In this document: positions 37,468 to 58,509 of the stretch, in pieces
Layout of the letters: each line of letters opens with the position of its first letter
Position numbering within the stretch: position 1 is the first letter of the stretch
NCBI GenBank assembly: GCA_003023725.1
Contig: PXYT01000003.1
Coordinates: 1 to 64,000 of the forward strand
Direction: 5' to 3'
Source: Sulfobacillus benefaciens
GTDB lineage: Bacteria; Bacillota; Sulfobacillia; Sulfobacillales; Sulfobacillaceae
DNA length: 64,000 nucleotides
Position numbers and translations under genes: made by a program
Notes under the pieces: generated by a model
What the model saw: only the letters and a program-made list of their open reading frames with translations
Database searches by the model: none
What the model was told of the DNA's origin: nothing

Positions 37468-38292
37468 ATGGAAGGCTTAGTGAAATCTGCAGATCGTGTG
37501 GTTACCGTGTTGTCGGCAGTTGCCGAGATTCCTGGAGGGCTTTCATTTACCGAGCTGCTAAATAAGACCGGTATTCCTAAAAGCAGCCTGCACGGCATTA
37601 TCCAGACCTTGGTTGCCGATTCGATGATCACGTATGATGAGTTGACTCGGGTCTATTATTTTGGGCCGCGTCTGTGGGAACTGGCTATGAAATATTATGA
37701 CCGTCTTCATTTGGTCCCTTTGGCATGGCCCTATATCGAACAATTGCGGGATACATGCGGACAGACGGTGCAGATGGCTGTTCTGGATGGTCAGGATGTG
37801 CTTTATGTGGCTAAGGCCGAGTCCCACCGTCCTTTGCAGATGGCCTCCTATGTGGGCAGTCGGCTGCCGGCTTACGCCACCGGGCTGGGAAAGGCGCTTT
37901 TAGCCACTCTGACGGATTCCCGGCTCAGAACCATTTTTCCTCAAGAACCATGGCCCGCTTTTACCAAGAATACCATTACGCGTTATGACGAGTTGATACA
38001 GAAGTTGAAACACATTCGCGAACAGGGATTTGCCGAAGACATGGGGGAATATTCCCCTGATATCCGATGTATTGCCTATCCCGTGCTGGGGTTGGAAAAT
38101 CGTGGAGTGGCTGCAGTCAGTGTGTCAGTGTCGGCCGACGAATTTTCCAGCGTCAAGATTCACGATCTTGTCCGTGTTTTGCGTAAGCAGTGTCATCTTA
38201 TGGCCCGGCGGTTGGGCAGCACTGACCCGGAGGCATGGCGCCAGTCTGCCGACACGGATTCCTCGCGCGCTGTTCGCGAGAAGCTGCTTTGA
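37468..38292 (+). CDS. IclR family transcriptional regulator
   Basis: 274 residues. The N-terminal helix-turn-helix (SFTELLNKTGIPKSSLHGII, about 26-45) is followed by the IclR effector domain with YATGLGKALLA and the EYSPDIRCIAYPVLG block that forms part of the ligand pocket. GAGGAGG precedes the ATG. It heads the glycosidase, transporter and rhamnose block on the same strand, which starts about 165 bases further on, and is the only regulator within it. Control of that block by a sugar-derived metabolite is a reasonable inference. Confidence 0.92.
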   Translation: MEGLVKSADRVVTVLSAVAEIPGGLSFTELLNKTGIPKSSLHGIIQTLVADSMITYDELTRVYYFGPRLWELAMKYYDRLHLVPLAWPYIEQLRDTCGQTVQMAVLDGQDVLYVAKAESHRPLQMASYVGSRLPAYATGLGKALLATLTDSRLRTIFPQEPWPAFTKNTITRYDELIQKLKHIREQGFAEDMGEYSPDIRCIAYPVLGLENRGVAAVSVSVSADEFSSVKIHDLVRVLRKQCHLMARRLGSTDPEAWRQSADTDSSRAVREKLL

Positions 38293-38457
38293 AAAACCTG
38301 AGACATTGAACCAATGTTCATCATGCAGAACACCCATGAATTCCTTCGATGGAGTAAAAAAATGGAAAGAGCATAACCTTGGCTGCAAGTTGTCACCACA
38401 GGTCTCTGGCGTCGGGGAAAAGACGACGGAGAAGTCATAGGGAAGGGGCACCGTATC

Positions 38458-40695: not shown

Positions 40696-40747
40696 AAATT
40701 TTTCCAGCCAGGTTGTGACAAACGTACAAAGCGAAGGAGTCCGGGTG

Positions 40748-41956: not shown

Positions 41957-42031
41957 TCAATCGAGAGGATTTTTTGTGATGCATCGTCGGATAAAAGACG
42001 AGAATAGGTTGTAGGATTATTTTGATTGTTA

Positions 42032-42060
42032 TTGATTTTGGTGCGGATTGGAACTAGGAT
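42032..42060 (+). promoter_or_regulatory. Candidate promoter of the Opp-type transporter operon
   Basis: TTGATT at 42032-42037 is spaced 17 bases from TAGGAT at 42055-42060, within an AT-rich stretch 90 bases before the binding-protein start. Confidence 0.45.
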
Positions 42061-42149
42061 AATATTAGTTTATCACCTTGGGAACTGAGGTTCATATATG
42101 AGAACTCAAACAGCCGCTATGACTACCTTGTAAAAGGAGGGTTTTGGCC

Positions 42150-43790
42150 ATGAAAGGATTATCTCGGATTGCGGTGGCCGGTGTCGCTGCGATAGTGGGA
42201 ACAGCTGGGCTGAGTGCTTGTGGAGCCGCTGCGAGTCAAAAGGCAGCTGCGGCTCCGTTAGTCGTGTTGCCTAGTCCTATTGGATCATATTCCAGAAATT
42301 TCAATCCATTTTCTCCCACGGATTTACCGGGAACAACCGGATTAGTCTATCAGGATTTGTTTTATTTCAATCCACTGAAAAGTCAGACTTATCCGATGCT
42401 GGGAACCAGTTTTGCCTGGTCTGGTCACGGAACCGTTCTAACGGTGCATTTGCGAAAGAACGTGAAATGGACCAATGGCCAGCCCTTTAATGCTGATGAT
42501 GTTGTCTATACGTTTGATTTGTTAAAACGCTATCCGGCACTTGACACTAATGGTATTTGGAAAGTTCTGTCGAAAGTCAAGGCCGTGAATTCGGATGTGG
42601 TAACATTCATTTTCAAAGCACCCAACGTACCGTACCAATGGTATGTTCTCGGTGAAACGCCTATCATTGACCAAGCATTGTGGAAACAGGTTTCGGACCC
42701 GGTCAAATACGGCAACCCTAATCCGGTGGGAACAGGACCCTATTTACTGAAATCGTTTTCGCCGCAAGTCTACTCGTTTAGCGCCAATGCTTCCTATTGG
42801 GGCGGAAAACCCAAGGTGCCAACCGTGGAATATCCGGCCTACACGAGTAACTCCAGCGCTGATTTAGCACTGTCACGCGGAAAAATTGATTGGGCGGGTC
42901 TGTTCATTCCCAACGCGCAGAAGGTTTACGTGAAACCCAATCCCAAACAGAACCATTATTGGTTTCCCCCGAATTACATCGTTATTCTGTATACCAACCT
43001 CAAGAATCCGCTTTTGGCACAATTACCTGTTAGGCAAGCAATCAGTCTAGCAATTAACCGGGAAAAGATAGATAAGGTCGGAGAATATGGTTACGAAAAT
43101 CCTTCCAGTCCGACGGGGCTTATTTTGCCGAACAATAAGGCATGGTTGAACCCCAGTTTACCGCCACAGGATGTATCCTTTTCCTATAACCCGGCCAAAG
43201 CCGTTTCCATTCTGAAAAGCGCGGGGTATAAGAAGAATGCTCAGGGAATCTTTACCAGTCCTTCGGGCCAACCCTTGAGTTTTACTCTCAATGTTGTGAG
43301 TTCCGCGACCGACTGGGTATCCGATGCGTCCATCATGCAGAGCGAGCTCCACAATGTGGGTATTAAGTTGACGGTTAACCAGGAACAATACGGGGCTTTT
43401 TACGGTGCGCTCAAGAGCGGGACCTATCAACTGGCCATTTGGGGTTCTAGCCCCGGGCCCACACCGTATTATTTGTATAATGCGCTGCTTTCCCCATCGT
43501 CTATCGGGAACTATGAGCACTGGAATTCATCGGCAACGAACGCTGCTTTGGCTCAGTATTCTGCCAGCAGCAATCTTTCCGTGCAGAAACATGCCATGTA
43601 CGCGATCGAGCACACAATGGCTACTCAACTGCCATCGATACCATTAGTGAACGGTCCAAACTGGTACGAGTACAATACGAGTCAATATACGGGATGGCCG
43701 ACTCCGTCCAATCCTTATAGCAATGTCACTCCTGCCAGTGCGTTTGGAACAACTGTCGTACTCATGCATTTGCATCCGGTTGCGAAATAA
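42150..43790 (+). CDS. ABC transporter substrate-binding lipoprotein, family 5 (OppA/DppA type)
   Basis: 546 residues. A signal peptide ends in the lipobox LSAC (Cys24). The core follows the SBP_bac_5 fold, with the marker region VKWTNGQPFNADDVVYTFDL near residue 110 and VRQAISLAINREKI near 300. AAGGAGGG precedes the ATG at 42150. Family 5 proteins bind peptides, nickel or, in several thermophiles and archaea, oligosaccharides. Here the operon is flanked by GH36, GH37 and GH78 glycosidases, so an oligosaccharide or glycoside ligand is more likely than a peptide. Confidence 0.93.
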   Translation: MKGLSRIAVAGVAAIVGTAGLSACGAAASQKAAAAPLVVLPSPIGSYSRNFNPFSPTDLPGTTGLVYQDLFYFNPLKSQTYPMLGTSFAWSGHGTVLTVHLRKNVKWTNGQPFNADDVVYTFDLLKRYPALDTNGIWKVLSKVKAVNSDVVTFIFKAPNVPYQWYVLGETPIIDQALWKQVSDPVKYGNPNPVGTGPYLLKSFSPQVYSFSANASYWGGKPKVPTVEYPAYTSNSSADLALSRGKIDWAGLFIPNAQKVYVKPNPKQNHYWFPPNYIVILYTNLKNPLLAQLPVRQAISLAINREKIDKVGEYGYENPSSPTGLILPNNKAWLNPSLPPQDVSFSYNPAKAVSILKSAGYKKNAQGIFTSPSGQPLSFTLNVVSSATDWVSDASIMQSELHNVGIKLTVNQEQYGAFYGALKSGTYQLAIWGSSPGPTPYYLYNALLSPSSIGNYEHWNSSATNAALAQYSASSNLSVQKHAMYAIEHTMATQLPSIPLVNGPNWYEYNTSQYTGWPTPSNPYSNVTPASAFGTTVVLMHLHPVAK

Positions 43791-43813
43791 TTGATGGGGG
43801 GTAAGCTTGCGCA

Positions 43814-44791
43814 ATGAAATTTGTGGCACAACGTTTTCTCTTTCTGTTGCTATCCGTGTGGGCAGCCATAACCATAAATTTTTTTCTTCCGAGAATGATG
43901 CCAGGCAACCCAGCGGAAGTGATGCTAGCACGTTACCAGGGTAAACTTAATCCACAAGCTCTGCACGCTCTTGCCCTCCAATTCGGGATTTCGCATCAAC
44001 CGCTTTGGGTTCAGTACTGGAGTTATCTCATTAGTCTGTTGCATGGCAACTTGGGGGTTTCGGTCTCGTATTATCCTACCCCTGTCACTACGGTGATTGC
44101 TCAAAGTTTGCCATGGACTCTGGCTCTTGCAGGAACCGCGACGGTGATTAGCGTTGTGGCGGGTACGTGGCTGGGGGTTATATCGGCATGGCATCGAGGC
44201 ACCATAGTAGACGACATACTTCCTATTGCCACAACGGTATCTTCCGCTATCCCCTATTTTTGGATGGCATTGCTTTTATTGTATCTATTTGGCTTTCTCT
44301 TGGGTTGGTTTCCACTGGGGCACGCATATTCGACCATTATGGTACCATCATGGTCCGCCGGGTTTGTTGGCAATTTGTTGGCTCATGCCATTTTGCCTCT
44401 ATCGACCATTCTAATCAGTTCTCTGGGAGGGTGGCTGATGTCCATGCGAAACAATATGCTTCACATTTTGGATGATGATTTTATGACTTTTGGAGAAGCG
44501 CGGGGATTGTCTTCGAGGCGACTGGTCTATATTTATGCGGCACGCAACGCGATTTTACCGAACCTGACTGGGTTCTCAATGGCCTTAGGGTTTGTGGTAA
44601 GCGGAGCACTATTGACGGAGATCGTGTTTTCCTATCCGGGACTCGGATATCAACTGTTTACGGCCGTCGAAAACGAAGATTATCCCCTGATGCAAGGGCT
44701 GTTTCTCATAATCGCGTTGGCCGTTCTGCTCGCGAATTTTATTACCGAACTTATTTATGCCCGTCTCGATCCCCGAGTTAGAGAGGAATAA
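43814..44791 (+). CDS. ABC transporter permease, DppB/OppB type
   Basis: 325 residues with six membrane helices. The N-terminus (FLFLLLSVWAAITINFFLPR, then MMPGNPAEVM) and the inner EAA-like loop EARGLSSRRLVYIYAARNAI identify it. It pairs with the DppC-type permease whose gene follows after only four bases. Confidence 0.94.
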   Translation: MKFVAQRFLFLLLSVWAAITINFFLPRMMPGNPAEVMLARYQGKLNPQALHALALQFGISHQPLWVQYWSYLISLLHGNLGVSVSYYPTPVTTVIAQSLPWTLALAGTATVISVVAGTWLGVISAWHRGTIVDDILPIATTVSSAIPYFWMALLLLYLFGFLLGWFPLGHAYSTIMVPSWSAGFVGNLLAHAILPLSTILISSLGGWLMSMRNNMLHILDDDFMTFGEARGLSSRRLVYIYAARNAILPNLTGFSMALGFVVSGALLTEIVFSYPGLGYQLFTAVENEDYPLMQGLFLIIALAVLLANFITELIYARLDPRVREE

Positions 44792-44795
44792 TCAA

Positions 44796-45734
44796 ATGAT
44801 TAGGCCTGTACGAGAGAAATTTCCTCTGTCATTACGGTCTTTAAGAAAAGTGGACGAAGTCAAAAGACCGTCGAGTATATGGAGCCGAATGTTGGGCAAC
44901 ACAAAATTCAGATGGGGACTCACCATTTTCATGCTATTTGTCTTAATGGCCATTCTGGCTCCGGTGATTTCTCCTTATAGCCCTACTCTCACAAGTTTTA
45001 CGCCTCTGGACCCACCAAGCCTAAAGCATTTGCTAGGCACCACGGCCAATGGTCAGGACGTTCTCTCTCAGGTCATCTGGGGGACACGCATTTCTTTGGG
45101 CGTAGGTGTCGGGGCCGGGGCGCTGTCCATTGTTATTTCGATAGCGATAGGACTGTTGGCCGGCTATAAGGGCGGCTTGGCCGACAAGATTCTTACAACT
45201 GTTACGAATATCGTTTTGGTTATTCCCGGTTTACCTTTGATCATAGTTGTTGCAGCGTATGTTCGGGCTACGGGACCACTGACAATTGCATTGGTTATAG
45301 GTTTAACCGGATGGGCGTGGGGCGCCAGGGTTTTGCGGTCACAAAGCCTTTCGTTGGCCAGTCGAGATTATGTTACCGCGGCCAAGTTGCAGGGAAATAG
45401 CGACGCCTATATCATACGTCAAGAGATTTTGCCCAACATGATATCCCTTATCGTCGCTAACTTCGTGTACTCCGTGTTATCGGCAATTCTGGCAGAGGCT
45501 GCGCTGGAATTTCTGGGCTTCGGCAACGTGAGCGACGTTAGCTGGGGAACCATGTTGTATTGGGCCAATAACGGGCAGGCATTGTTAAGCGGCGCGTGGT
45601 GGTGGTTCGTTCCTCCCGGCTTGGCGATCGCCATGGTGGGAGCAAGTTTGGCCTTAATGAATTATGGAGTGGACGAAATTGCCAATCCCAAACTTTCGGT
45701 ACACCGAAAAAGGAGGGCAAATAAACGGTCATGA
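44796..45734 (+). CDS. ABC transporter permease, DppC/OppC type
   Basis: About 312 residues, six membrane helices. LGTTANGQDVLSQVIWGTRI and the cytoplasmic loop DYVTAAKLQGNSDAYIIRQE are characteristic. The ATG at 44796 has GAGAGGAAT upstream; the frame extends into the end of the previous gene. The stop overlaps the start of the next ATPase gene (ATGA). Confidence 0.94.
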   Translation: MIRPVREKFPLSLRSLRKVDEVKRPSSIWSRMLGNTKFRWGLTIFMLFVLMAILAPVISPYSPTLTSFTPLDPPSLKHLLGTTANGQDVLSQVIWGTRISLGVGVGAGALSIVISIAIGLLAGYKGGLADKILTTVTNIVLVIPGLPLIIVVAAYVRATGPLTIALVIGLTGWAWGARVLRSQSLSLASRDYVTAAKLQGNSDAYIIRQEILPNMISLIVANFVYSVLSAILAEAALEFLGFGNVSDVSWGTMLYWANNGQALLSGAWWWFVPPGLAIAMVGASLALMNYGVDEIANPKLSVHRKRRANKRS

Positions 45735-46723
45735 TAGAAAGCGGTCACGTTCTTAACGTCTCTCATCTCACCGTAGACTATGGTAATGAAAACACTCCGG
45801 CGCTTGCATTACGCGATGTCAGTCTTTCCGTCGATCCTGGTGAATTTGTTGGACTGGTGGGCGAATCGGGTTCAGGAAAGTCGACCTTGGCCTATGCTAT
45901 TTTGCGGTTGTTGCATGGGGGGCGCGTGGTTGAAGGGTCGATTGAGGTCTCGGGACAAAACGTGTATGAACTGGATTCCAACCATTTGCGAAAATTTCGC
46001 TGGGAAACGGTGTCTATGGTATTTCAAGGGGCTATGAATTCTCTCAACCCTGTGCTTACGGTCGAACAACATATATTCGAGACTATTCGGGCACATGATG
46101 AGTCTGTAACCCTGACGGCCTTGCGATCTCGAACCGACGAACTGCTGGATATGGTCGAAATCGACAAACGGCGGGCACAACACTATCCGCACCAATTGTC
46201 TGGGGGAATGAAACAAAGGGTTGTCATCGCGCTGGCTATCGCTCTTAATCCCAAATTAGTGATTATGGATGAGCCGACCACGGCTCTCGATGTGGTGGTG
46301 CAGCGGGCGATTTTGGACCGGATCGGCGAGATTCAAAAAAGACAGCGTTTCGCGGTGCTATTTATTACGCATGATTTAAGTCTAGTCGAACAAATTGCAC
46401 AAACTGTATCGATTATGTATGCGGGAAAAATCGTCGAAACAACTCCCGTTGAACAATTGCTGACGGGAACCTTACACCATCCCTATACTCGGGGTTTGTT
46501 GAACGCTATTCCAGAATTGCTCGAAGACAACGTTGCCATCAGCAGTATCCCCGGGCATCCTCCGGAAATAACGCGACTTCCTTCGGGGTGTGCATTCCAT
46601 CCGCGCTGTTTGTACGCGAAGGATGAGTGCCGTATGTCTCCACCTATTCTCAAGCTATACGCGGGGTCATGGATTGCTTGTGAGCGGTTGCCGGAATTGG
46701 AGGAATTATACAGTGATCAATAA
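45731..46723 (+). CDS. ABC transporter ATPase, DppD/OppD type
   Basis: 330 residues. Walker A GESGSGKST, signature LSGGMKQR, Walker B LVIMDEPTTALD, H-loop ITHDLSLVEQ. The C-terminal oligopeptide-transporter extension carries LPSGCAFHPRCLYAKDEC with the cysteines that bind an iron-sulfur cluster in some homologues. It overlaps both neighbours by a few bases, showing translational coupling. Confidence 0.95.
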   Translation: MIESGHVLNVSHLTVDYGNENTPALALRDVSLSVDPGEFVGLVGESGSGKSTLAYAILRLLHGGRVVEGSIEVSGQNVYELDSNHLRKFRWETVSMVFQGAMNSLNPVLTVEQHIFETIRAHDESVTLTALRSRTDELLDMVEIDKRRAQHYPHQLSGGMKQRVVIALAIALNPKLVIMDEPTTALDVVVQRAILDRIGEIQKRQRFAVLFITHDLSLVEQIAQTVSIMYAGKIVETTPVEQLLTGTLHHPYTRGLLNAIPELLEDNVAISSIPGHPPEITRLPSGCAFHPRCLYAKDECRMSPPILKLYAGSWIACERLPELEELYSDQ

Positions 46724-47714
46724 CCCGGAAATAGGAACCCACTATGACGAGGAGTCTGTGTTAGAAGTCGAAGATTTAACGGTGACGTTTGCCATGGGAA
46801 GCCCATGGCGCAGAAAAGTGTTGGTGCCGGTGAATCACGTGAGCTTTTCGTTGAAGAAGGACGAGGCACTGGGATTGGTAGGGGAGTCGGGAAGTGGGAA
46901 AAGCTCTATTGCCAAAGCCCTGACACGTATTTACACTCCCACCAGCGGTGAAATGTATTTTCACGGGACCAATGTTGCGTTTATTCGCGGAAGTGAATTG
47001 AGGAAATATCGGCAAAAGGTGCAAATGGTCTTTCAAGATCCATATAGTGCCCTGAATCCCCTAAAGACTGTTCATCAGCAAGTCCAAAGACCGTTGCGCC
47101 TTATCGGAAATACCCAATACAGCGTGGATAGTTTGTTGGAAGCGGTCGGCTTGTCTCGCGACCTACAATATAAACTCCCTCACGAGCTGTCGGGGGGACA
47201 GCGTCAGCGGGTTGTTATAGCCCGGGCAATGGCGCTTAACCCTGAGATCATCGTGGCTGATGAGCCCATTTCTATGCTTGATGTCTCCATTCGTGCCAGT
47301 ATCTTGTCCTTAATGAATGACCTCCGAAGGCGATATCACGTCGGTTATCTTTACATCACTCATGATCTGGCATCGGCGCGGTTTTTTTCCGATCGGATTA
47401 TGGTCATGTATGGCGGACATCTCGTCGAAATTGCTCGATCTGCGGAATTAATCCGGCGCCCCTTTCATCCTTACACCCAGTTGCTGCTGGCCGCAACTCC
47501 GAGTAAACGCCAACAAAAATCCGCGTTACCTCAAACCGGTTACAGCACGCCAAATTTATGGTCGACGGCAAAAGGCTGTCCCTTCGCTCCGAGGTGTCTT
47601 TATGTTCGGGGCGAATGTACCATTAACCGTCCTCCGTGGACGTGGGTTAGCTCAACACATGGCGTGGCCTGTTTTGCCAACGAGTTATTTAGGCAGCCCG
47701 GGAGTCAAATGTAA
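46713..47714 (+). CDS. ABC transporter ATPase, DppF/OppF type
   Basis: 333 residues. Walker A GESGSGKSS, signature LSGGQRQR, Walker B IIVADEPISMLD, H-loop ITHDLASARFF. The C-terminal extension has GCPFAPRCLYVRGEC. The GTG at 46713 follows GGAGGAAT and overlaps the previous gene by 11 bases; the open frame runs further upstream only because of that overlap. It completes the five-gene importer. Confidence 0.94.
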   Translation: MINNPEIGTHYDEESVLEVEDLTVTFAMGSPWRRKVLVPVNHVSFSLKKDEALGLVGESGSGKSSIAKALTRIYTPTSGEMYFHGTNVAFIRGSELRKYRQKVQMVFQDPYSALNPLKTVHQQVQRPLRLIGNTQYSVDSLLEAVGLSRDLQYKLPHELSGGQRQRVVIARAMALNPEIIVADEPISMLDVSIRASILSLMNDLRRRYHVGYLYITHDLASARFFSDRIMVMYGGHLVEIARSAELIRRPFHPYTQLLLAATPSKRQQKSALPQTGYSTPNLWSTAKGCPFAPRCLYVRGECTINRPPWTWVSSTHGVACFANELFRQPGSQM

Positions 47715-47761
47715 AAACGAAAGTCGAACAGACGACGAATCGATTGGAGGGGACAGCGCTG

Positions 47762-50467
47762 ATGCCGGATGTTCAGTGGACGGATTTGAGAATCGTTAAT
47801 TTGAGAGCGGAATATTTGCCGGAGCCGCTTGGGATCGATGCATTGCGTCCAAGACTGAGTTGGCAAATCCGGGGTCAGGGGCGTAACCGCTGCCAAAGTG
47901 CCTACCAGTTGATTGTGTCCTTGGCGTCTGCCCATTCTTCGGTTATCTGGGACACGGGAAAGGTGTTGTCATCCCGAACAACCCACGTTGAGTACCAGGG
48001 ATCTCCTTTGAGGTCCAGGCAACGATACGCATGGCGAGTCCGGATATGGGACGAGCAGGGACGTATATCACCGTTTGTGTCATCGTGGTGGGAAACGGGA
48101 CTGTCGAACCGGCAAGAGTGGGCGGCAAAATGGATTGGGACGGCAGAAGATGATGACGAACAGGGAGCCGGTGAAGACGGATGCTCAGAAGCTTGCCCAA
48201 ATGAAATGGAGCTATCCCCCGCGATATTCTTTCGCAAGGTTTTTGAGCTGAGGAAACCTCTGCGCATGGCCAGGTTATACGCGTCCGCCCGTGGGCTCTA
48301 TATGCCCTTTGTCAATGGGCGACGGCTGGAACGACGGCTTTTAACGCCCGGGTGGACCGATTACGCCAAGCGGATCACCTACCAAACCTACGACATCACG
48401 CCTTATCTCCACGACGGAACAAATGTGGTGGCAATGATTCTGGGAGAGGGATGGTACAGCGGTTCTGTGGGTTTTCGGGCGGACAAACCTCGTCATCATT
48501 ATGGACGCCGTCCTCTCCTCATCGCTCAAATTGAATGGGTCTATGAGGACGGCAGCTGTGACCATGTGGTAACCGATTCAACCTGGCGATATCACGACGG
48601 CCCCATTCGGTATTCGGATTTTTTGATGGGAGAATGTTACGACGCCCGCCGGGAGATGGCCGGTTGGGCTTGTTCGGGATTTGACGAGGAAAATTGGAAG
48701 AGCGCCGAAGAACCCCTAGTGCCTTGGGTTCCTCTTTCCGGGGAAAAGACTTTTCCCGTGGTTATTACCGCCGAACGTCGTCCGCAGCGTTTCATTCAGC
48801 TTTCACCCCTACGCCAAATCGCCGATTTTGGTCAGAATATGACGGGATGGGTTCGCCTAGAAGTCCGGGGTGAAAGAGGCACCGTAATTACGCTGCGTTT
48901 TGGGGAAATGCTGACGGAAAATCAGGAACTCTACGTAGGCAATTTCCGGTCTGCAAAAAATACCGACACTCTCGTTCTGCGGGGAGAGGGACAAGAGATT
49001 TGGGAACCGCATTTTACTATTCATGGCTTTCGTTACGTCGAAATATCCTCGAATCACGACGACGTGCGTTTTGACAATATCACTGCGTGTGTGATTCACA
49101 ATGACTTGCCTTGGACGGGGAAATTTGAGTGTTCCAGCGAACTGGTAAATCAGTTGCAGCGAAATATCCAGTGGAGTGAGCGCAGCAATTTCGTGAGTAT
49201 TCCCACGGATTGTCCGCAACGTGACGAACGGCTAGGCTGGCTCGCTGATGCTCATATTTTCGCCAGAACCGCCATGTACAACATGGACGTGTCCAGCTTC
49301 TTTACGAAATGGCTGGACGATGTTCAGGATGCGCAATCGCCCGACGGAGCGTTTCCAGTCGTGGCACCGAGACTCGTCGACGAGGGGGACGGAGCGCCGG
49401 GGTGGGGTGACGCTGGAATTATCATCCCTTGGACCATGTATCTGGTCTATGGTGACAGGAGAATACTGGAAACGTTCTATCCGTCCATGGTGAAGTGGGT
49501 GCAACATATCGGCGAGGTGAATCCCCGGTACTTGTGGATAAATCGGAGGAGTCACGATTTTGGAGATTGGCTGTCTGTGGGAGAGCAGACACCAAAAGAT
49601 CTTCTCGCCACCGCCTTTTGGGCCTATGACGTGTGCTTGCTTGCCCGAATGGCTAAAAGATTAGGAAAAATCCATGATGCCAGGGCCTATGGGTCCTTGT
49701 TCCGCCGCATCCGCCAGGCTTTCATTGAAGCCTTTGTCGAGGACAGTGGAGAAATTGCCGGAAACACACAGAGCGCTTATGCTTTGGCGCTCTTTATGCA
49801 TTTACTTCCGGTCTCTTTACGCCAGTCAGCCGCCGACAAATTGGTGACGAATATTCGAGGGCACGGAGGACATTTGTCCACTGGATTTCTTGGAGTTAGC
49901 TATCTTTGCCCCGCACTCAGCATGACCGGTCGCGATGAGGTGGCCTATCGGCTGCTCTTGAACACGACATTTCCCTCGTGGGGATATCCGGTGGTTCAAG
50001 GTGCGACGACGATGTGGGAGCGCTGGGACGGATGGACTCGCGAGACGGGTTTTCATCCTTCGGATATGAATTCCTTCAATCATTACGCCTTGGGGTCTAT
50101 CGGAGAATGGTTATATCAATTTGTCGCCGGAATTGATGCCGATCCCCGGCACCCTGGGTACGAGCATATTCTGATCCGCCCGCATATCAACCCCTCTTTG
50201 GATTGGGTGGAGGCATCCTACGATTCCATTCGCGGCACAATCGCGGTGTCTTGGAACGTTCAGAAAAATGGGGTGACCCTCGATGTCACCATTCCGGTTA
50301 ACACCACGGCAACGATTTATTTTCCCTTATCCCAAGATCAGCAGATTTTCGAGAATGACGTGGAGGTCGAAGAAGTTAAAGGGGTTCGGGGATATCGCCG
50401 TTCTCCCGGATTTGGCGTCATTGACACCGGATCCGGCAGATATCATTTTGTTTCGAGAGGGAGGTAG
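47762..50467 (+). CDS. GH78 alpha-L-rhamnosidase
   Basis: 901 residues, the usual multidomain architecture. N-terminal beta-sandwich domains (GIDALRPRLSWQIRGQGRNR region), a carbohydrate-binding-like domain (VNGRRLERRLLTPGWTDYAK), then the (alpha/alpha)6 catalytic domain beginning near IPTDCPQRDERLGWLADAH, which contains the general acid glutamate. WGYPVVQGATTMWERWDGW and the C-terminal beta domain follow. It releases L-rhamnose from rhamnosides such as flavonoid glycosides or pectin side chains. No signal peptide, so it acts on imported glycosides. GGAGGGG precedes the ATG at 47762, 47 bases after the transporter operon; the MBL-fold gene starts five bases after its stop. Confidence 0.95.
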   Translation: MPDVQWTDLRIVNLRAEYLPEPLGIDALRPRLSWQIRGQGRNRCQSAYQLIVSLASAHSSVIWDTGKVLSSRTTHVEYQGSPLRSRQRYAWRVRIWDEQGRISPFVSSWWETGLSNRQEWAAKWIGTAEDDDEQGAGEDGCSEACPNEMELSPAIFFRKVFELRKPLRMARLYASARGLYMPFVNGRRLERRLLTPGWTDYAKRITYQTYDITPYLHDGTNVVAMILGEGWYSGSVGFRADKPRHHYGRRPLLIAQIEWVYEDGSCDHVVTDSTWRYHDGPIRYSDFLMGECYDARREMAGWACSGFDEENWKSAEEPLVPWVPLSGEKTFPVVITAERRPQRFIQLSPLRQIADFGQNMTGWVRLEVRGERGTVITLRFGEMLTENQELYVGNFRSAKNTDTLVLRGEGQEIWEPHFTIHGFRYVEISSNHDDVRFDNITACVIHNDLPWTGKFECSSELVNQLQRNIQWSERSNFVSIPTDCPQRDERLGWLADAHIFARTAMYNMDVSSFFTKWLDDVQDAQSPDGAFPVVAPRLVDEGDGAPGWGDAGIIIPWTMYLVYGDRRILETFYPSMVKWVQHIGEVNPRYLWINRRSHDFGDWLSVGEQTPKDLLATAFWAYDVCLLARMAKRLGKIHDARAYGSLFRRIRQAFIEAFVEDSGEIAGNTQSAYALALFMHLLPVSLRQSAADKLVTNIRGHGGHLSTGFLGVSYLCPALSMTGRDEVAYRLLLNTTFPSWGYPVVQGATTMWERWDGWTRETGFHPSDMNSFNHYALGSIGEWLYQFVAGIDADPRHPGYEHILIRPHINPSLDWVEASYDSIRGTIAVSWNVQKNGVTLDVTIPVNTTATIYFPLSQDQQIFENDVEVEEVKGVRGYRRSPGFGVIDTGSGRYHFVSRGR

Positions 50468-50472
50468 CATCA

Positions 50473-51267
50473 ATGTATGAAATCTGGGTTGAAGAAGTGG
50501 CGGACTTAGGCCAGGTTCCAGGTCCTGAGATTTTTTGGATGTCCCGCTTTGGCGAGTGGCTGCCCCTGAAAATTTATTTGCTGCTCATTCAGGGTCAGGG
50601 TCGAACCATTTTGGTGAATACCGGGCCGCCCTTGGACTATGTGGAGCATATGAACGATGTGTGGCGTGAAGAATTAGGTGAGCCAACCCACATGAGTGTC
50701 TCACCGGAACAGCATATTGAAGCCGTGCTGGCGCGTCACGGCCTTAGCTGTCAGTCGGTGGACACGGTGGTGCTGACGCCGCTTCAGGCCTATGCCGACG
50801 GAAATGTTGACAAATTTCCTCATGCGCAGATCTGTATCTCGCGAAGGGGGTGGATTGATTTGTTTGCCCCCCGGTTCTTCGATGCCCGCCGGCACATGGC
50901 TGTTCCCGACCGCTTATTGCAATATCTCGTGTTTAAAGCCTGGCCTGAACGCCGGGTCCGCTTACTGGAGGATGAGGAGGAGATTGCCCCCGGTGTACGC
51001 AGCATCTGGGTGGGGACCCATCACCGCAGTTCCCTGGCGGTCTTGGTGGCAACAGCTCGAGGTGTGGTGGCTTATAGCGATGCCGTGTTTTATTACGAAA
51101 ATTTAGAACGGGATCATCCGCTCGGAATTCAGGAAAGTATGGAAGAGTGCCGTATCGCTTATGCGCGGCTGCGCCGCGACGCCGACATTGTGGTCTCGCC
51201 CTATGACCCCTCTAATACCCTACGGTTTCCGGGAGGAGCCGTCGTGCTCGCTCCAGGGGAATCCTAA
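50473..51267 (+). CDS. MBL-fold protein without metal ligands, possible rhamnonolactonase-position gene
   Basis: 264 residues that follow the outline of the AiiA/AttM-like metallo-beta-lactamase fold: ILVNTGPP in place of the VDTG strand, [12 protein letters not shown] at the position of the HxHxDH metal motif, [28 protein letters not shown] and VVSPYDPS. The four ligands of the HxHxDH motif are replaced by non-ligands and the final histidine by tyrosine. Only one His and one Asp of the later sites remain. Classical binuclear zinc hydrolysis is therefore unlikely. It lies between rhamnosidase and rhamnose-pathway dehydrogenase genes, with five bases to the former. A lactonase, a sugar-binding or a structural role is possible; no function is assigned. 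Confidence 0.75.
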
Positions 51268-51310: not shown

Positions 51311-52306
51311 ATGAAAACGTTAACTTGGACGGCGAAAGAGACCATGTCTATGATCAGTCGGCCCGATCCGGCCAAAAGACCGGGGTGGGCTGTGTTGCGT
51401 GTGTCAAGTGTTGGGATTTGCGGTTCGGAGATTGCGGGATATCTGGGCCTCAACGAATTACGCAAGCCGCCCCTGGTGATGGGGCATGAGTTTTCGGGAG
51501 TGATTGAAGAGATTGAAGATGGATTGGGTCCGAACCAACCGGGTGATCGGGTCACAGTGAATCCCTTGGTCAGTTGTGGAACCTGCCGGCATTGCAGGAG
51601 AGGGAACCGCCAGCGTTGTCAACAGCGCCGGATCATTGGCATCGACTACCCCGGAGCCTATGCGGAACGAGTGTTGGTGCCGGCCTCCCAATGTTATCCG
51701 GTGCATAACGCCCTGGGAGGCGCTTTGGTGGAACCGCTGGCCTGTGCTGTCAGGGCCGTGGGACGGGCGCAGGTGGAGAAGGAGGGATCCGCGCTGGTGG
51801 TCGGAGCGGGCATTATTGGTCTCATGACGGCCCGCCTTCTCCGTTTATCAGGTGTCGAGGAAATTGCTCTGGTGGACACCAACCCAGGGCGTTTACGTCT
51901 GGGTGAATTATGGGGAGCCACGACGACAGAACCGGATTTGGATAGGCTCCTGCAAAATGGCAGAGGCGGCAGCTTCGATACCGTGGTGGATGCGGTGGGA
52001 TTTTCGTCGACGCGCCGCCAGAGTCTTAAGGCACTGGCCAGGGGAGGGACGGCCGTATGGATTGGACTGCATGAATCTTCCACCGAGTTTGATGGAAATG
52101 CTTTGGTTCGGGATGAGGTTTCCATTCGCGGCAGTTTTTGTTACCGGGATGATGAATTCGTTCAGGCGCTGGATTTAATCAACCAGGGGACCATACTGCC
52201 CGAAACACATTCTTGGCTCGACGTGAGACCTATGGAAGAAGGGGATCAAGCCTTTAAGGAGCTGGTCCGGGGTTCTCCCTACGCGAAAATTGTTTTGAGC
52301 TGGTAA
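51311..52306 (+). CDS. MDR-family zinc dehydrogenase, probable 2-keto-3-deoxy-L-rhamnonate 4-dehydrogenase
   Basis: 331 residues. Catalytic zinc site GICGSE and GHEFSG, structural cysteines in [17 protein letters not shown], nucleotide motif [10 protein letters not shown]. Sorbitol/threonine-dehydrogenase-like branch. In the diketo-hydrolase route of L-rhamnose breakdown, 2-keto-3-deoxy-L-rhamnonate is oxidised at C4; to my knowledge an MDR-type enzyme for this step has been described from Sulfobacillus. Context (rhamnosidase before, FAH hydrolase, SDR and rhamnonate dehydratase after) points to that role. The ATG at 51311 lies ten bases after GAGAGG; the upstream frame overlaps the MBL gene. 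Confidence 0.85.
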
Positions 52307-52481
52307 ACCCCTCAGTTTGGTAGGCGAAGGCTCCCGAATTTTGGTACGGTAGGAATGAAAGCCGCACATCAAAAATGCTGCTCCCGGCCATATGGGGGAG
52401 TGCCGTTGGGGCTAACCCCTACCCGCGAAGCGCATTCGAATAAAGAGTTCCACGAAAAAATTAAGGCAGGAGATGATGAGT

Positions 52482-53375
52482 ATGAAACTGGCCAGCGCCA
52501 TTGTGAACGGGAGGGAGGAAGCTCTGTGGGTTTCTTCGGGGGGATATGTTCCCATATCCCGGTTACGCGAATATTTCGGCGGTGAGGGGGAACCCGTGAT
52601 TATGAGCCGGATTCTATCCGATGCCGCTCTTCAGGATCAATTGCGGGAGTTTACGCAGCGAGCCACCGAGGCGGGTGTGAGTCTGAACACGTCCGTCGAC
52701 AGACTATTGGCCCCGGTTCCGTCGCCGGGGAAAATCATTTGCGTCGGGTTGAACTACCGTTCTCATGCCAAGGAATCGCAAATGGAGATTCCCGCGTCTC
52801 CGGTACTGTTCAACAAATATAACAACACGGTATGCGGCCCCGGTACGGTCATTGATCCCCCGGACGATTCCGGACAGTTGGACTATGAAGCCGAATTGGT
52901 GGTGATTATCGGCAAAAAGGGTTCCCATATCCCGCACGAACAGGCTTTGGATTACGTGGCCGGGTATTGTAATGGAAATGATGTGTCGGCGCGCGACCTT
53001 CAATTTCGCACGGGGCAGTGGCTTTTAGGGAAATCATGCGACCAATTTGCGCCTATGGGTCCTCATATGGTGACGGCGGATGAGATATCCGATCCCGACA
53101 ATCTGGAGATTACAGGATGGCGGAATGATGAAATGGTACAGCATGCCAACACCCGGGACATGATTTTTTCGTGCCGCGATCTGATCAGCTACATCTCCCG
53201 TTACATCACCTTGACACCGGGGGATGTCATCTTTACGGGAACACCGGAAGGCGTCATCTTAGGCAAGCCGCCCGAATCCCGAAGATGGCTCGAGCCTGGA
53301 GAAACGATTTCGGTTGAAATTCAGGGCCTGGGCCGGCTGACCAATGAAATCGGCATTCCTGGAAGAAGAGGGTAG
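52482..53375 (+). CDS. FAH-family hydrolase, probable 2,4-diketo-3-deoxy-L-rhamnonate hydrolase
   Basis: 297 residues. An N-terminal small domain is followed by the fumarylacetoacetate hydrolase fold. It has the metal-binding glutamates in DYEAELVV, GYCNGNDVSARDLQ, and the C-terminal GDVIFTGTPEGV. The entry helix segment ICVGLNYRSHAKES is typical. FAH enzymes split C-C bonds of 1,3-diketo acids; with a 2,4-diketo-3-deoxy-L-rhamnonate substrate the products are pyruvate and L-lactate. The lactate-oxidation genes a few kilobases downstream support this. The ATG at 52482 is nine bases after AGGAG; two other ATG codons lie just upstream. Confidence 0.88.
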   Translation: MKLASAIVNGREEALWVSSGGYVPISRLREYFGGEGEPVIMSRILSDAALQDQLREFTQRATEAGVSLNTSVDRLLAPVPSPGKIICVGLNYRSHAKESQMEIPASPVLFNKYNNTVCGPGTVIDPPDDSGQLDYEAELVVIIGKKGSHIPHEQALDYVAGYCNGNDVSARDLQFRTGQWLLGKSCDQFAPMGPHMVTADEISDPDNLEITGWRNDEMVQHANTRDMIFSCRDLISYISRYITLTPGDVIFTGTPEGVILGKPPESRRWLEPGETISVEIQGLGRLTNEIGIPGRRG

Positions 53376-53425: not shown

Positions 53426-54190
53426 ATGGCACTGTTGAACGGAAAAGTGGCCCTGATCACCGGGGCCACACGCGGGATTGGCCGAGCCATAGCCGTCCGG
53501 CTGGCCGAGGAAGGAGCCGGAGTTGTTGTCGATCATCCCGGGGAGGACGCCCAGGCACAAGCAGTAGTATCCGAAATCCGTGAAAAAGGCGGAACGGCGA
53601 TAGCCATCCGGGCGGATGTCTCAGACTCGCATGAGGTCGAGCACCTCTTTGCCGAAGCCCTGCACCATTATCAAACCGTGGATATTCTGGTCAATAATGC
53701 GGGAATTTGCCCGTTCGTGGAGTGGTTTGAGTTAACGGAAGCTCTGTGGGATCAGGTTTATGCCGTGAACTTAAAAGGAGCATTTCTTTGCTCCAGGCAA
53801 GCCTCGAAGATCATGAGGGATCACGGACATGGCGGTCGGATTATCAGCCTCAGTTCGATTTCCGCATTAGTGGGAGGAAAGTTTCAGACGCACTATACGC
53901 CGACGAAGGCAGGAGTGCGTTCGTTGATGCAGTCTTTGGCCATTGTGCTGGGGCCGTATGGTATCACCTGCAATTCGATTTTACCGGGAAGCATTTTGAC
54001 CGATATCAACCGCGATCACTATGCCGATCCAGCCATTTGGCAGCGAGATGTCGGGCGAATTCCTCTGGGTCGTTTAGGAAATCCCGAAGACATTGCCGGG
54101 GTAGCGGCTTTTTTGGCATCGGACGACGCCCGCTACGTCAACGGGGCCGACATCCTGGTGGATGGAGGACTGTTCGTCAATCTCCAGTGA
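53426..54190 (+). CDS. SDR dehydrogenase, probable L-rhamnose 1-dehydrogenase
   Basis: 254 residues. TGATRGIG nucleotide motif (about 14-21), NNAG near 91, catalytic SSIS-x-Tyr-xxx-Lys around HYTPTKAG (Tyr near 156), and the C-terminal VNGADILVDGG. Oxidation of L-rhamnose to L-rhamnono-lactone by SDR enzymes is the first step of the non-phosphorylated pathway; the flanking FAH and rhamnonate dehydratase genes favour this substrate. It sits 50 bases after the FAH gene and 45 before the dehydratase gene. Confidence 0.85.
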   Translation: MALLNGKVALITGATRGIGRAIAVRLAEEGAGVVVDHPGEDAQAQAVVSEIREKGGTAIAIRADVSDSHEVEHLFAEALHHYQTVDILVNNAGICPFVEWFELTEALWDQVYAVNLKGAFLCSRQASKIMRDHGHGGRIISLSSISALVGGKFQTHYTPTKAGVRSLMQSLAIVLGPYGITCNSILPGSILTDINRDHYADPAIWQRDVGRIPLGRLGNPEDIAGVAAFLASDDARYVNGADILVDGGLFVNLQ

Positions 54191-54235: not shown

Positions 54236-55417
54236 ATGAAGCAAGCGGTGAAGATTGTCCAATTACGCACTTACACAGTGGCTCGGGAGGGAAGCGATTA
54301 CCATGCACAAGAGGCTGGTCACTGGATTGTGGGTGAGATTGCTACCCCCATGTCCCGCTACCCCGAATATCGCCAGTCCCGGTCATCCTGGGGCCTCGAT
54401 GTCTTGGGCACAGTCGTGGTGGAGGTGGAGGCGAGCGACGGAACCACCGGATTCGGTGTCAGCACTGGCGGTCCCCTGGCGGCATGGATTGTGTCTCACC
54501 ATCTATCCCGCTTTATTGTGGGACAAAGTCCCTGGAACATCGAAAAAATGTGGGATCAAATGTATCGGGCCACGTTCTACTATGGACGCAAGGGTATCGT
54601 CCTGAATGCAATTTCAGCGGTGGATCTGGCTTTGTGGGATTTGCTGGGGCACATTCGGCAAGAACCCGTCTACGCGATGCTGGGGGGAGCAGTGAAAGAA
54701 GAGATTCCTTGTTATGCGACCGGCCCCCGCCCGGATGTGGCCAAGGCTTTCGGATTCATCGGCGGGAAGCTGCCTCTGCCCTATGGCCCGGCTTCGGGAG
54801 ACGAGGGGTTGGAAAGGAATGTGGCTTTGTTTCGGCAGGCCAGAGAGCAAGTCGGCGAGGAATTTTGGTTGATGGCAGATTGCTGGATGGCTTTGGACTT
54901 GCCCTACGCCGTGGAACTGAGCCGACGTCTCGCCCCTTATCACCTGAAATGGATTGAAGAATGTTTTCCGCCGGACGATTTTTGGGCCTATCAGTCGTTC
55001 AGAAAAATTTTGGGCTCGCAGATACTGGTCAGCACGGGAGAGCATGAAGCCACGCGCTGGGGCTTTAAGCAGTTATTGGAGAGTCGTGCCGCTGATTTTA
55101 TTCAGCCCGACGTGAGTTGGTGCGGCGGTATTACGGAACTCACTAAAATTGCCGATCTGGCGGATGCCTTCGGAGTGTGGGTGATTCCCCACGGATCGAG
55201 TGTTTACAGTTATCATTTTGTCATGACCCGTACGAATAGTCCTTTTGCTGAGTTTCTCATGATGCACAAGGATGCCACGGAGATTGTTCCCATGTTCTCG
55301 CCGCTGCTGGCTGGTGAGCCAGTGCCTCAAAAAGGGAGGATACGGTTATCGGATTCCCCCGGCTTCGGTGTGGAATTAAACCGATCTGTGCTCAACCCTG
55401 CGGGCCCCTTGCCCTGA
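54236..55417 (+). CDS. rhmD: L-rhamnonate dehydratase (enolase superfamily)
   Basis: 393 residues. N-terminal capping domain with WGLDVLGTVVVEVEASDG and STGGPLAAWIVSHHLSRFI, then the barrel with metal ligands in LMADCWMALD, WIEECFPPDD and STGEHEATRWGF. The general acid/base histidine is in IPHGSSVYSYHF. These blocks are specific to the rhamnonate dehydratase group. It needs magnesium and converts L-rhamnonate to 2-keto-3-deoxy-L-rhamnonate. AAAGGGGA precedes the ATG. The lut genes begin about 170 bases after its stop. Confidence 0.93.
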   Translation: MKQAVKIVQLRTYTVAREGSDYHAQEAGHWIVGEIATPMSRYPEYRQSRSSWGLDVLGTVVVEVEASDGTTGFGVSTGGPLAAWIVSHHLSRFIVGQSPWNIEKMWDQMYRATFYYGRKGIVLNAISAVDLALWDLLGHIRQEPVYAMLGGAVKEEIPCYATGPRPDVAKAFGFIGGKLPLPYGPASGDEGLERNVALFRQAREQVGEEFWLMADCWMALDLPYAVELSRRLAPYHLKWIEECFPPDDFWAYQSFRKILGSQILVSTGEHEATRWGFKQLLESRAADFIQPDVSWCGGITELTKIADLADAFGVWVIPHGSSVYSYHFVMTRTNSPFAEFLMMHKDATEIVPMFSPLLAGEPVPQKGRIRLSDSPGFGVELNRSVLNPAGPLP

Positions 55418-55587: not shown

Positions 55588-56472
55588 ATGAGGATTCAAC
55601 ATGCAGGAGAGACATTCAGGAAAGAAGATGAAATTCCAGTGAAAGTGCAATTGTTTGTAAGCTGTCTAGCGGATATGGTGCGCCCTGAGGCGGCTATTGC
55701 CGCCGTGCATGTGTTGGAGAAGCGGGGGGTCGGAGTGGAATTCCCTGAGGGCCAGACTTGTTGTGGCCAGTTCAGTTACAATGCGGGATATCAGCATGAA
55801 GCAGCCGTCATGGCACGGCATTTTGTTCGCGTCTTCGAGTCCGGAACACAGGAAGATCCCACCGATATTCTGGCATTGTCCGGATCTTGCGCCGCGACGG
55901 TGATGCACACCTATCCCGGGTTGTTATATGAAGATGCCCTGCAGCAAGGGGAGCCGGAGACAAAGGCCAGAGAATGGAAGAAACGTGCGGAGGCGGTGGC
56001 GGGGAGAGTGCATGAATGGAGTATGTGGCTTGGGGAGCATGCTGACCAACCAATGGCACCAAACGGCTCCCCCTTGCCGGTGGCCTACCATTTGGGATGT
56101 CACATGCGCCGTTTGCTGCCGGAGTCGCGGAAGGCTCAAGATCTTCTCAGGGCCCTGGGCATCGACGCCCGGGAACCGGAAAATGCCGAGGAGTGTTGCG
56201 GTTTTGGCGGTACCTACAGTTTTACCGAGCCGGTTGTTTCCACAGCTCTGGCGGATGATAAGCTTGCAAACGTTCAAAATCTGGTGCAAGACGCCGGGGC
56301 TGTGTGTTTGACCGGTGCGGATTTGGGTTGCCTGCTTCACCTCGAAGGGCGGTTGAGACGGCAAGAGTCGTCCCTTCCGGTCTGCCACGTTGCGGAACTT
56401 GTGGAATTGGCAGACCAAAACCGACTGACACCGGATCAGGTGCGGCAACTCGAACAGGGAGGGGGAAAATAA
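55588..56472 (+). CDS. lutA: L-lactate oxidation iron-sulfur protein LutA/LldE
   Basis: Up to 294 residues, with two cysteine-rich CCG domains: CLADMVRPEA, GQTCCGQ, LSGSCAATV, YHLGCHMRRLLP, ECCGFGG and GADLGCLLHLEGRL. LutA carries electrons in the three-protein L-lactate dehydrogenase complex. The ATG at 55588 has a distant GAGG; the family-conserved region begins with KVQLFVSC at about residue 18, so a GTG at 55639 is an alternative start. The next gene starts directly at its stop. Confidence 0.92.
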   Translation: MRIQHAGETFRKEDEIPVKVQLFVSCLADMVRPEAAIAAVHVLEKRGVGVEFPEGQTCCGQFSYNAGYQHEAAVMARHFVRVFESGTQEDPTDILALSGSCAATVMHTYPGLLYEDALQQGEPETKAREWKKRAEAVAGRVHEWSMWLGEHADQPMAPNGSPLPVAYHLGCHMRRLLPESRKAQDLLRALGIDAREPENAEECCGFGGTYSFTEPVVSTALADDKLANVQNLVQDAGAVCLTGADLGCLLHLEGRLRRQESSLPVCHVAELVELADQNRLTPDQVRQLEQGGGK

Positions 56473-57924
56473 ATGGCGGGTCAATTGCCATACGACAACA
56501 GACCGTGGCCCGAGAGACGGGATGCCGCTCTTCAAAATCAAACCATGCGGCACACCATCGGGTTCGTGACCCGACGTTTTACTCTCATCAAAGGAGAAAT
56601 CTACCGCACGAGCCCGGATCTCGAGGCTTCCCGGAAGACGGCCGTAGGACAAAAAAGGCAAGCGATTCGGGATTTGCCCCAACTTCTGGAGCAATTCCGT
56701 AACCAAGTGGAACGGCGGGGCGCCCACACCTATCTCGCTGCCCAGGCCCAGGATGCGGTGGACATTGCTTTGAATATTGCCAGAAGCCACCAGGCAGAGC
56801 TGGTCATAAAAAGCAAGTCCATGGTAACGGAAGAAATCGAACTTAATCAGGCCTTTGAAAAAGCCGGGATACCCGTTCGTGAAACCGATTTGGGTGAATA
56901 CATCATCCAATTGGCGAAAGAACGGCCGTCCCACATTTTGGCTCCCGCGGCTCACCGTAACCGCCATCAAGTCGAAGAATTATTTCAGGCTGATGCTTCC
57001 AGGGAGAAAATTAGCCCTCCGCAAAGTGATGAGATTGAGGATTTAACCCGTTATGCGCGCTCACGCCTGCGACAGGAATTTTTGCGTGCGGACATGGGCG
57101 TCACCGGCGGGAATTTTTTGGTGGCAGAAACGGGAACCCTTGTCCTCATTACCAATGAAGGAAACGCAGATATGGTGACCTCCTTGCCTCCGGTGCTGGT
57201 GTCTATTGTAGGCGTCGAAAAAATTGTGCGGGACTGGGCATCATTGACCGAGATCATTCAGCAGCCGGCAATGAGCGGCATTGGCCGTCATCTGTCCTCC
57301 TACACCACGATGATTCAGGGCCCCAAGTCTCCGGGGTCTGTGGAAGGACCCAGGGAGTGGCATGTGATTTTGGTGGACAATGGCCGCATGGCCCTTCGCG
57401 ATACCGAATTCGAAGATGTGCTCAGTTGTATTCGGTGCGGGGCGTGTTTGAATGCCTGCCCAGTGTTTCGTGAGGTCGGCGGCCATGCCTACGGCAGTGT
57501 CTACCCGGGTCCTATCGGTATTGTAGAAACGCCGTTGTTAACGGATTTTCAGGTTTTGCCGGAATTACCCTCGGCACTATGCACATTGTGCCATGCTTGT
57601 CAGGAAGCTTGTCCTATGGATATTGCCTTACCGGACCACATCATATCCCTGCGGCATACCATCGTCAAACGCCACTTGAATTCGAGTACCGTGAACTGGA
57701 CTCTCCGAACATGGGCCCGTTTCTGGAGTACCCCTGGGGGATACCGTCGCTCCATTAGTCTGGCCCGGGTGATGCAACGTTTAAGCGGAAAGAAACGCAA
57801 CGCTCAAGGCCTCTTTCCCGGCATATTTGCGGGATGGGGGCAAACCCGGGAAATTCCCCAGGTTGCGCCCAAGACCTTTCATGAGTGGTGGCAAGAATGG
57901 AAAGAGAGAGCTGAGGAGAAATGA
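56473..57924 (+). CDS. lutB: L-lactate oxidation iron-sulfur protein LutB/LldF
   Basis: 483 residues, standard length. An N-terminal LUD domain (residues about 60-300, with AETGTLVLITNEGNADMVTS) is followed by two 4Fe-4S motifs in CIRCGACLNACPVF and CTLCHACQEACPMDI and a C-terminal domain. It is the large subunit of the LutABC complex that converts L-lactate to pyruvate. GGGAGGGGG precedes the ATG, which abuts the lutA stop. Confidence 0.95.
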   Translation: MAGQLPYDNRPWPERRDAALQNQTMRHTIGFVTRRFTLIKGEIYRTSPDLEASRKTAVGQKRQAIRDLPQLLEQFRNQVERRGAHTYLAAQAQDAVDIALNIARSHQAELVIKSKSMVTEEIELNQAFEKAGIPVRETDLGEYIIQLAKERPSHILAPAAHRNRHQVEELFQADASREKISPPQSDEIEDLTRYARSRLRQEFLRADMGVTGGNFLVAETGTLVLITNEGNADMVTSLPPVLVSIVGVEKIVRDWASLTEIIQQPAMSGIGRHLSSYTTMIQGPKSPGSVEGPREWHVILVDNGRMALRDTEFEDVLSCIRCGACLNACPVFREVGGHAYGSVYPGPIGIVETPLLTDFQVLPELPSALCTLCHACQEACPMDIALPDHIISLRHTIVKRHLNSSTVNWTLRTWARFWSTPGGYRRSISLARVMQRLSGKKRNAQGLFPGIFAGWGQTREIPQVAPKTFHEWWQEWKERAEEK

Positions 57925-57927
57925 GGC

Positions 57928-58509
57928 ATGGCTGTGGATGAAGGGATATTGCGACGTTTTGAGGAGGAATGGCAAGGTAACGCCGGAAAGATTTTTCATA
58001 TTGTCCAGGCGGAAGAACTGCAAACGGTTTTGACTGATTTGGCGGACGCGAATGGCGTCTCGGATCAAAATCCCATTGTCGTTTCGGGGCTTTCGGAAAA
58101 ATGGGCTCAGTGGATTCGAACATGGAACATGAAACAAGTTTATATCTGGAACCCGGAGGATGAAGCCGAAGAATTCCGGCATCGTTGTGCCGACGCCTCT
58201 GTGGGGATAACGGGCTGTGCCTGGGCTGCCGCGGACGCCGGCAGTGTTTGTCTTTACAGCCAAAAAGACAGCAGTTTGCTGCCCAGCCTTCTGCCGCCGG
58301 TTCATGTTGTCATGATATCCGCGGCTCAGATAGTTTCCACCTTTCGTGAGGGCATGGACCGATTGTATCGCGATGCGCGCCAAGGGGGAGAATGGCCGGC
58401 ACTCGTGAAGATTGTGGCAGGTCCCAGCATGACAGCGGATATTGAAGGACAGCTGATTTTAGGCGTGCATGGTCCCCGTGATGTTTATGCCGTCATCGTC
58501 GACAATTAA
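57928..58509 (+). CDS. lutC: L-lactate oxidation protein LutC/LldG
   Basis: 193 residues, a stand-alone LUD domain with GITGCAWAAADAGSVCLYS, LPPVHVVMISAAQIV and GPSMTADIEGQLILGVHGP. It is the third component of the lactate-oxidation complex. It begins three bases after the lutB stop, with GAGGAG within the end of lutB. It is the last gene of the + strand block and is followed by structured non-coding DNA and a terminator. Confidence 0.94.
   Translation: MAVDEGILRRFEEEWQGNAGKIFHIVQAEELQTVLTDLADANGVSDQNPIVVSGLSEKWAQWIRTWNMKQVYIWNPEDEAEEFRHRCADASVGITGCAWAAADAGSVCLYSQKDSSLLPSLLPPVHVVMISAAQIVSTFREGMDRLYRDARQGGEWPALVKIVAGPSMTADIEGQLILGVHGPRDVYAVIVDN

Follow-up and report, generated by a model that had tools for sequence, protein, structure and literature searches.

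Catalysis by proteins of the metallo-beta-lactamase (MBL) superfamily is normally the work of the metal site, and those that lack it are usually regarded as inactive. The sugar lactonases of the amidohydrolase type, LRA2 and those of cog3618, have a fold unrelated to that of MBL proteins; Hobbs et al. (2013, listed in PMC6336799) reportedly described an L-fucono-1,5-lactonase of cog3618. Sugar lactones also open spontaneously, so that the step may not need an enzyme. Among MBL-fold proteins, CPSF100 and INTS9 have been described as catalytically inactive, and CPSF100 lacks key HxHxDH residues and has no bound metal in the yeast structure (PMC4819959).

The Route III pathway of L-rhamnose oxidation ends in pyruvate and lactate (PMC6336799), and Bae et al. 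(2015, as cited in PMC5674754 and PMC6336799) characterised a KDRDH of the MDR type from Sulfobacillus thermosulfidooxidans. Here we compare these systems with a gene of Sulfobacillus benefaciens that encodes an MBL-fold lactonase-like protein, MBLX. MBLX most likely opens L-rhamnonolactone through a rebuilt, probably metal-free site, a reading in which we place slightly better than even confidence and in which we infer the substrate, the hydrolysis and the absence of metal alike.

The L-rhamnose gene cluster

The window, by which we mean the whole stretch of 64,000 nucleotides that was analysed, carries a group of candidate genes that, judged by sequence, is what one would expect of the Route III (diketo-hydrolase) pathway of L-rhamnose (Table 1). 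The MDR dehydrogenase is a candidate KDR dehydrogenase by analogy with the S. thermosulfidooxidans enzyme (PMC5674754), and the FAH-family protein, from its best match and by analogy, is the probable 2,4-diketo-3-deoxy-L-rhamnonate hydrolase. The L-rhamnose 1-dehydrogenase would form the lactone and the L-rhamnonate dehydratase would use the opened acid. The lactonase is the one step of the pathway without a standard gene, the other steps having candidates.

Upstream of the rhamnosidase, positions 37468-47714 hold on one strand the genes of an IclR regulator, a GH36 alpha-galactosidase-like protein, a trehalase-like hydrolase and a family-5 (oligopeptide-type) ABC importer. These genes possibly serve the uptake and breakdown of a rhamnose-containing glycan.

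Table 1. Coordinates and supporting matches of the features of the window discussed here.
Feature	Position	Strand	Basis
IclR-family regulator	37468..38292	+	IclR_C 4.9e-46
Alpha-L-rhamnosidase (GH78)	47744..50467	+	Bac_rhamnosid6H 1.8e-123; TTG start from ORF list
MBLX, MBL-fold lactonase-like protein	50473..51267	+	264 aa ORF, ATG start to stop
Altered motif 2 of MBLX	50776..50802	+	codons 102-110, TPLQAYADG (metal-bearing relatives: HxHxDH)
Motif-3 loop of MBLX	51019..51033	+	codons 183-187, H-H-R-S-S
Motif-4 loop of MBLX	51079..51093	+	codons 203-207, D-A-V-F-Y
MBLX codon 244	51202..51204	+	Tyr replacing last metal His
MDR dehydrogenase	51311..52306	+	ADH_N/ADH_zinc_N; below equivalog cut-off
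FAH-family protein	52473..53375	+	best match NF053535, 1.4e-67, 228 bits; equivalog cut-off 500
L-rhamnose 1-dehydrogenase (SDR, Lra1 type)	53426..54190	+	NF053807, clearly the best match, 1.2e-103, 346 bits; below equivalog cut-off 400
L-rhamnonate dehydratase (enolase superfamily)	54236..55417	+	NF011968 2.5e-188, 625.9 bits; cut-off 393 exceeded
LutABC-type L-lactate oxidation genes, three ORFs	55588-56472, 56473-57924, 57928-58509	+	CCG; LUD_dom + Fer4 + LutB_C; LUD_dom

An earlier, sequence-only reading of this DNA had placed MBLX where a rhamnonolactonase is missing and had seen neither an SMP-30 nor an amidohydrolase-type lactonase in the block. Both statements held, as profile searches found neither type there and no known rhamnonolactonase family in the cluster. 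A hidden standard lactonase was considered and in part rejected: SMP-30 (PF08450) and the PF10282 lactonase both gave no match in the whole genome, and Amidohydro_2 proteins are left as possible lactonases. Five proteins of the latter family are encoded in the genome, all outside the block, and three of them gave no match to NCBIfam at 1e-20. At least one further MBL relative (C98) is encoded on another contig, and the lactone could be a substrate of this protein or of the five Amidohydro_2 proteins. Two closely similar Amidohydro_2 proteins of this genome lie at L082:12709-13971 and L083:5944-6975, one of them on the window's contig beyond the end of the window.

Fold of MBLX

The MBLX of the window gave no match to Pfam, while a weak match to Lactamase_B was obtained for 19 of 26 members of its clade (best 8.5e-8). 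Against NCBIfam it matched AiiA (2e-10, 40.2 bits) and 4-pyridoxolactonase (5e-6, 26.5 bits), reaching neither equivalog cut-off (375 and 325, respectively).

An AlphaFold2 model built from an alignment of 40 relatives had a pLDDT of 94.9. Its matches to lactonase structures spanned about 230-252 aligned residues: the P. poae AHL lactonase 8x78 (Z 31.0, 2.1 A, 249 residues), GcL and AaL (Z about 28.5), 4-pyridoxolactonase (Z 28.0) and AiiA 2a7m. The AiiA-like fold proposed earlier is thus borne out by whole-length matches (Z 27-31 to AHL lactonases and 4-pyridoxolactonase), including the superposition on AiiA that had been suggested as a check (Z 27.0). A second model took as its sole input the 26 clade members, among which there is no metal-bearing sequence; its pLDDT was 90.7 and its leading structure matches were unchanged, with less certainty at the motif-2 loop (block mean 76). 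A different fold is ruled out by these models from two alignments, one of them without metal-bearing relatives, and as modelled MBLX is a full-length AiiA-type metallo-beta-lactamase fold.

Replacement of the metal site

We compared the residues of the 26 aligned members of the MBLX clade with those of 14 paralogues, taken from relatives, in which every metal ligand is intact. Five of the seven metal ligands are replaced in MBLX, the HxHxDH motif having become PxQxYA and the last His a Tyr, so the canonical metal site is indeed lost. In motif 2, where the sequence-only reading had pointed to TPLQAYADG in place of HxHxDH, the protein reads T102-P-L-Q-A-Y-A-D-G110; P103, Q105, Y107 and A108 occur in 26/26 clade members and H, H, D and H in 14/14 paralogues. 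The Tyr that had been noted for the last metal His is Y244 (motif 5), again in 26/26 members, as against His in all 14 metal-intact paralogues. In motif 1, the Asp of 'DTG', present in 14/14 paralogues, is N49 in every clade member.

Two of the seven ligands alone are kept, in 26/26 members: H183 of motif 3, the single retained His ligand position, and D203 of motif 4, the retained bridging-Asp position. Next to them H184, R185 and S186 are clade-specific and invariant, and Y207 is likewise new in the clade. The earlier reading was silent on N49, on the two kept ligands and on the identity of all these states throughout the clade.

The clade-specific invariant residues are concentrated in the motif loops, 11 of 23 lying inside the five loops (hypergeometric p 2e-5, a simple count that ignores relatedness and uses loop limits chosen by the analyst). 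This concentration looks more like the exchange of one site for another than like erosion.

The retained H183 and D203 would also suit a lactonase that still holds one metal, with a new ligand set built around them, for which the new invariants H184, Q105, Y107 and Y244 are possible ligands. We consider this unlikely, as most ligands are gone at both metal positions and the motif-1 Asp is gone too.

Conservation and distribution of the clade

The 26 aligned members come from 22 genomes of two families of one order, and are separated from all other sequences in the tree by a branch with 100/100 support. The nearest metal-intact relatives in the tree are L054, L055 and L065, with weak support for their sister placement (85/54). 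Close pairs within the clade have dN/dS of about 0.06-0.15, and MBLX is under purifying selection.

The alignment of homologues, named in the sequence-only reading as a check on ligand loss, showed the loss to be common to all 26 orthologues, none of them keeping the ligands. In the draft genome G002, the MBLX copy (L033:938-1615) carries a TAA in frame, by which the matched frame is cut short on the 3' side, perhaps through a truncation or an error of assembly. The motif loss taken alone, and this stop codon in one other genome, are what a recent decay of the gene in the present strain would have in its favour. However, identical replacements in 26/26 members together with the low dN/dS are not the mark of decay; the comparison refutes a pseudogene, to which we give practically no weight. 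Nor does chance explain the pattern, given the fold, the synteny and the residue identity across two families.

A search of 154 genomes of the class confined the clade to these two families of one order, and it was not found in a sample of 398 genomes of the phylum, where three weak matches had retained HxHxDH. A plasmid search returned distant relatives alone, at about 30%, mostly annotated as N-acyl homoserine lactonase family. Further members could be sought with the signature TPLQAYA ... HHRSS ... YDP.

Linkage of MBLX to the pathway across genomes

Co-occurrence was scored in 121 genomes, namely the window's own and 120 relatives. Rhamnonate dehydratase was present in 25 of them, and MBLX in 23 of these 25 versus none of the 96 without the dehydratase (Fisher 9e-23 with relatedness ignored; since the genomes are related, the events counted are not independent). 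In both dehydratase genomes without MBLX, a contig end falls near its expected place: the G037 contig starts within the rhamnose dehydrogenase gene, which MBLX directly precedes in G036 of the same genus, and the G028 contig ends within the dehydratase gene. Around the dehydratase of G470, a member of the phylum, neither a rhamnose dehydrogenase nor a lactonase was seen, so that the contrast with this genome says little.

MBLX lies together with the rhamnose dehydrogenase and the dehydratase in 21/21 wide loci, and with the MDR dehydrogenase in 20 of the 21. No lactonase candidate was found among the recurring ORF families of these 21 related clusters. The other recurring ORFs included an IclR regulator (an ORF family found by clustering in 17/21 wide loci, of which the one member tested against Pfam is IclR) and an MFS-like transporter, besides ORFs that were unrelated or in reverse frame.

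In the window itself MBLX had been described as nearly fused to the rhamnosidase gene. The adjacency is real, with five bases between the rhamnosidase stop, which ends at 50467, and the MBLX ATG at 50473. It is not a conserved link, however: we found it in only two other genomes, and in most relatives MBLX is instead joined to the genes of the rhamnose dehydrogenase, the MDR dehydrogenase and the rhamnonate dehydratase. A functional tie between MBLX and the rhamnosidase was rejected on this count. In four genomes the end of MBLX and the beginning of the rhamnose dehydrogenase gene share 4 bp (ATGA or GTGA), an overlap of stop and start that couples MBLX to the enzyme that would make the lactone.

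Such an overlap would also suit a complex, in which MBLX would be a non-hydrolysing binder of the lactone or of some other rhamnose metabolite, serving as a sensor, a channelling partner or a subunit of the rhamnose dehydrogenase, while the lactone opened spontaneously. A precedent is CPSF100, an inactive MBL-fold member without the key HxHxDH residues that acts through a partner (PMC4819959). Yet it is in the catalytic loops that the clade-specific invariants are concentrated, and residues typical of catalysis are among the new ones; a sensor would, moreover, join a cluster that already has a regulator (IclR). We regard a binding role as improbable, and the evidence from sequence and gene context favours a lactone-handling enzyme.

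Related subfamilies

A second subfamily with the TPLQAYA motif, at 43-51% identity, was seen at L063:4046-6038, L064:3872-5870 and L040:10086-12068. Its genes adjoin that of a class-V aminotransferase-fold protein and have an SDR dehydrogenase near in all three loci; L063 and L064 also have a rhamnonate-dehydratase-like enzyme near. In its vicinity are large ORFs of 841-888 aa (L063:6159-8822 and L040:12999-15521), for which Pfam at 1e-5 had no match.

The closest metal-intact relatives, L054 (638-4780) and L055 (9657-13710), occupy the place expected for a sugar lactonase: their neighbours are a galactonate-dehydratase-like enzyme, an SDR dehydrogenase and an MFS transporter. The two loci may represent a second cluster for sugar oxidation, in which the lactonase would be an ordinary metal enzyme. 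Both they and the second subfamily would fit roles at a sugar-lactone step.

The company of the second subfamily, with an aminotransferase-fold protein besides the SDR and the rhamnonate-dehydratase-like enzyme, may also speak for a different reaction on a rhamnose-pathway compound, such as interconversion of the 1,5- and 1,4-lactones or another isomerisation; a metal-free His/Tyr/Arg site would suit acyl transfer within a sugar. The known pathway, however, requires no such step, and the hydrolysis step would then have no gene, which makes an isomerase quite improbable in our view.

Proposed role and mechanism

In the lactonase reading that we prefer, MBLX would be a dedicated lactone-handling enzyme, most simply an L-rhamnono-lactonase, of the order's oxidative Route III pathway. 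Its ancestor would have been a di-metal MBL-fold lactonase whose active site was rebuilt once, before the split of the two families. The rebuilding would have set a new fixed group of residues, N49, P103, Q105, Y107, A108 and Y244 (with H184, R185, S186 and Y207), around the retained H183 and D203. In the proposed reaction, D203 and a His partner (H183 or H184) would activate the water; R185 and/or a Tyr would take over from metal 1 in stabilising the oxyanion, and Y107 or Y244 from metal 2 in protonating the leaving alkoxide. The fullest form of this proposal, an MBL-fold enzyme family that has wholly given up its metals for a His/Asp/Tyr/Arg site and serves as the rhamnonolactonase throughout the order, is one we hold tentatively, at somewhat less than even confidence.

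The clade offers a natural test of whether the MBL fold can catalyse without metal, on the basis of its invariant replacement set, its kept fold and its tie to one metabolic step. MBLX is at the same time a candidate for the pathway step that lacks an assigned gene in these clusters.

Comparison with known systems

MBLX combines a known lactonase fold with a different site and a conserved metabolic context, from which its function is predicted. It resembles the AiiA/AttM-type lactonases (the AHL lactonases AiiA, AiiB, GcL and AaL, 8x78, and 4-pyridoxolactonase) in its fold over the whole length, in keeping the motif-3 His and the motif-4 Asp, and in the position of its gene at a lactone-forming step. 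It differs from them in sequence (16-21% identity), in having PxQxYA for HxHxDH, Tyr for the last His and Asn for the motif-1 Asp, and in falling below every NCBIfam equivalog cut-off.

With the L-rhamnono-gamma-lactonase LRA2 and the cog3618 amidohydrolase-type sugar lactonases MBLX would share the proposed reaction and the place in the pathway, but the block encodes no Amidohydro_2 protein. The SMP-30/gluconolactonase family is alike in the type of reaction proposed for MBLX; it has, however, an unrelated beta-propeller fold, and PF08450 is absent from the genome. CPSF100 and INTS9 share the MBL fold with MBLX, and in CPSF100 the loss of HxHxDH goes with a loss of activity. These are, in contrast, subunits from eukaryotic RNA processing, which work through a partner that is active, and not products of metabolic genes. 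Finally, the window matches the Route III pathway in having the rhamnose dehydrogenase, the rhamnonate dehydratase, an MDR-type dehydrogenase and an FAH-type hydrolase together, and departs from it at the lactonase step, which would here be filled by MBLX rather than by a known lactonase family.
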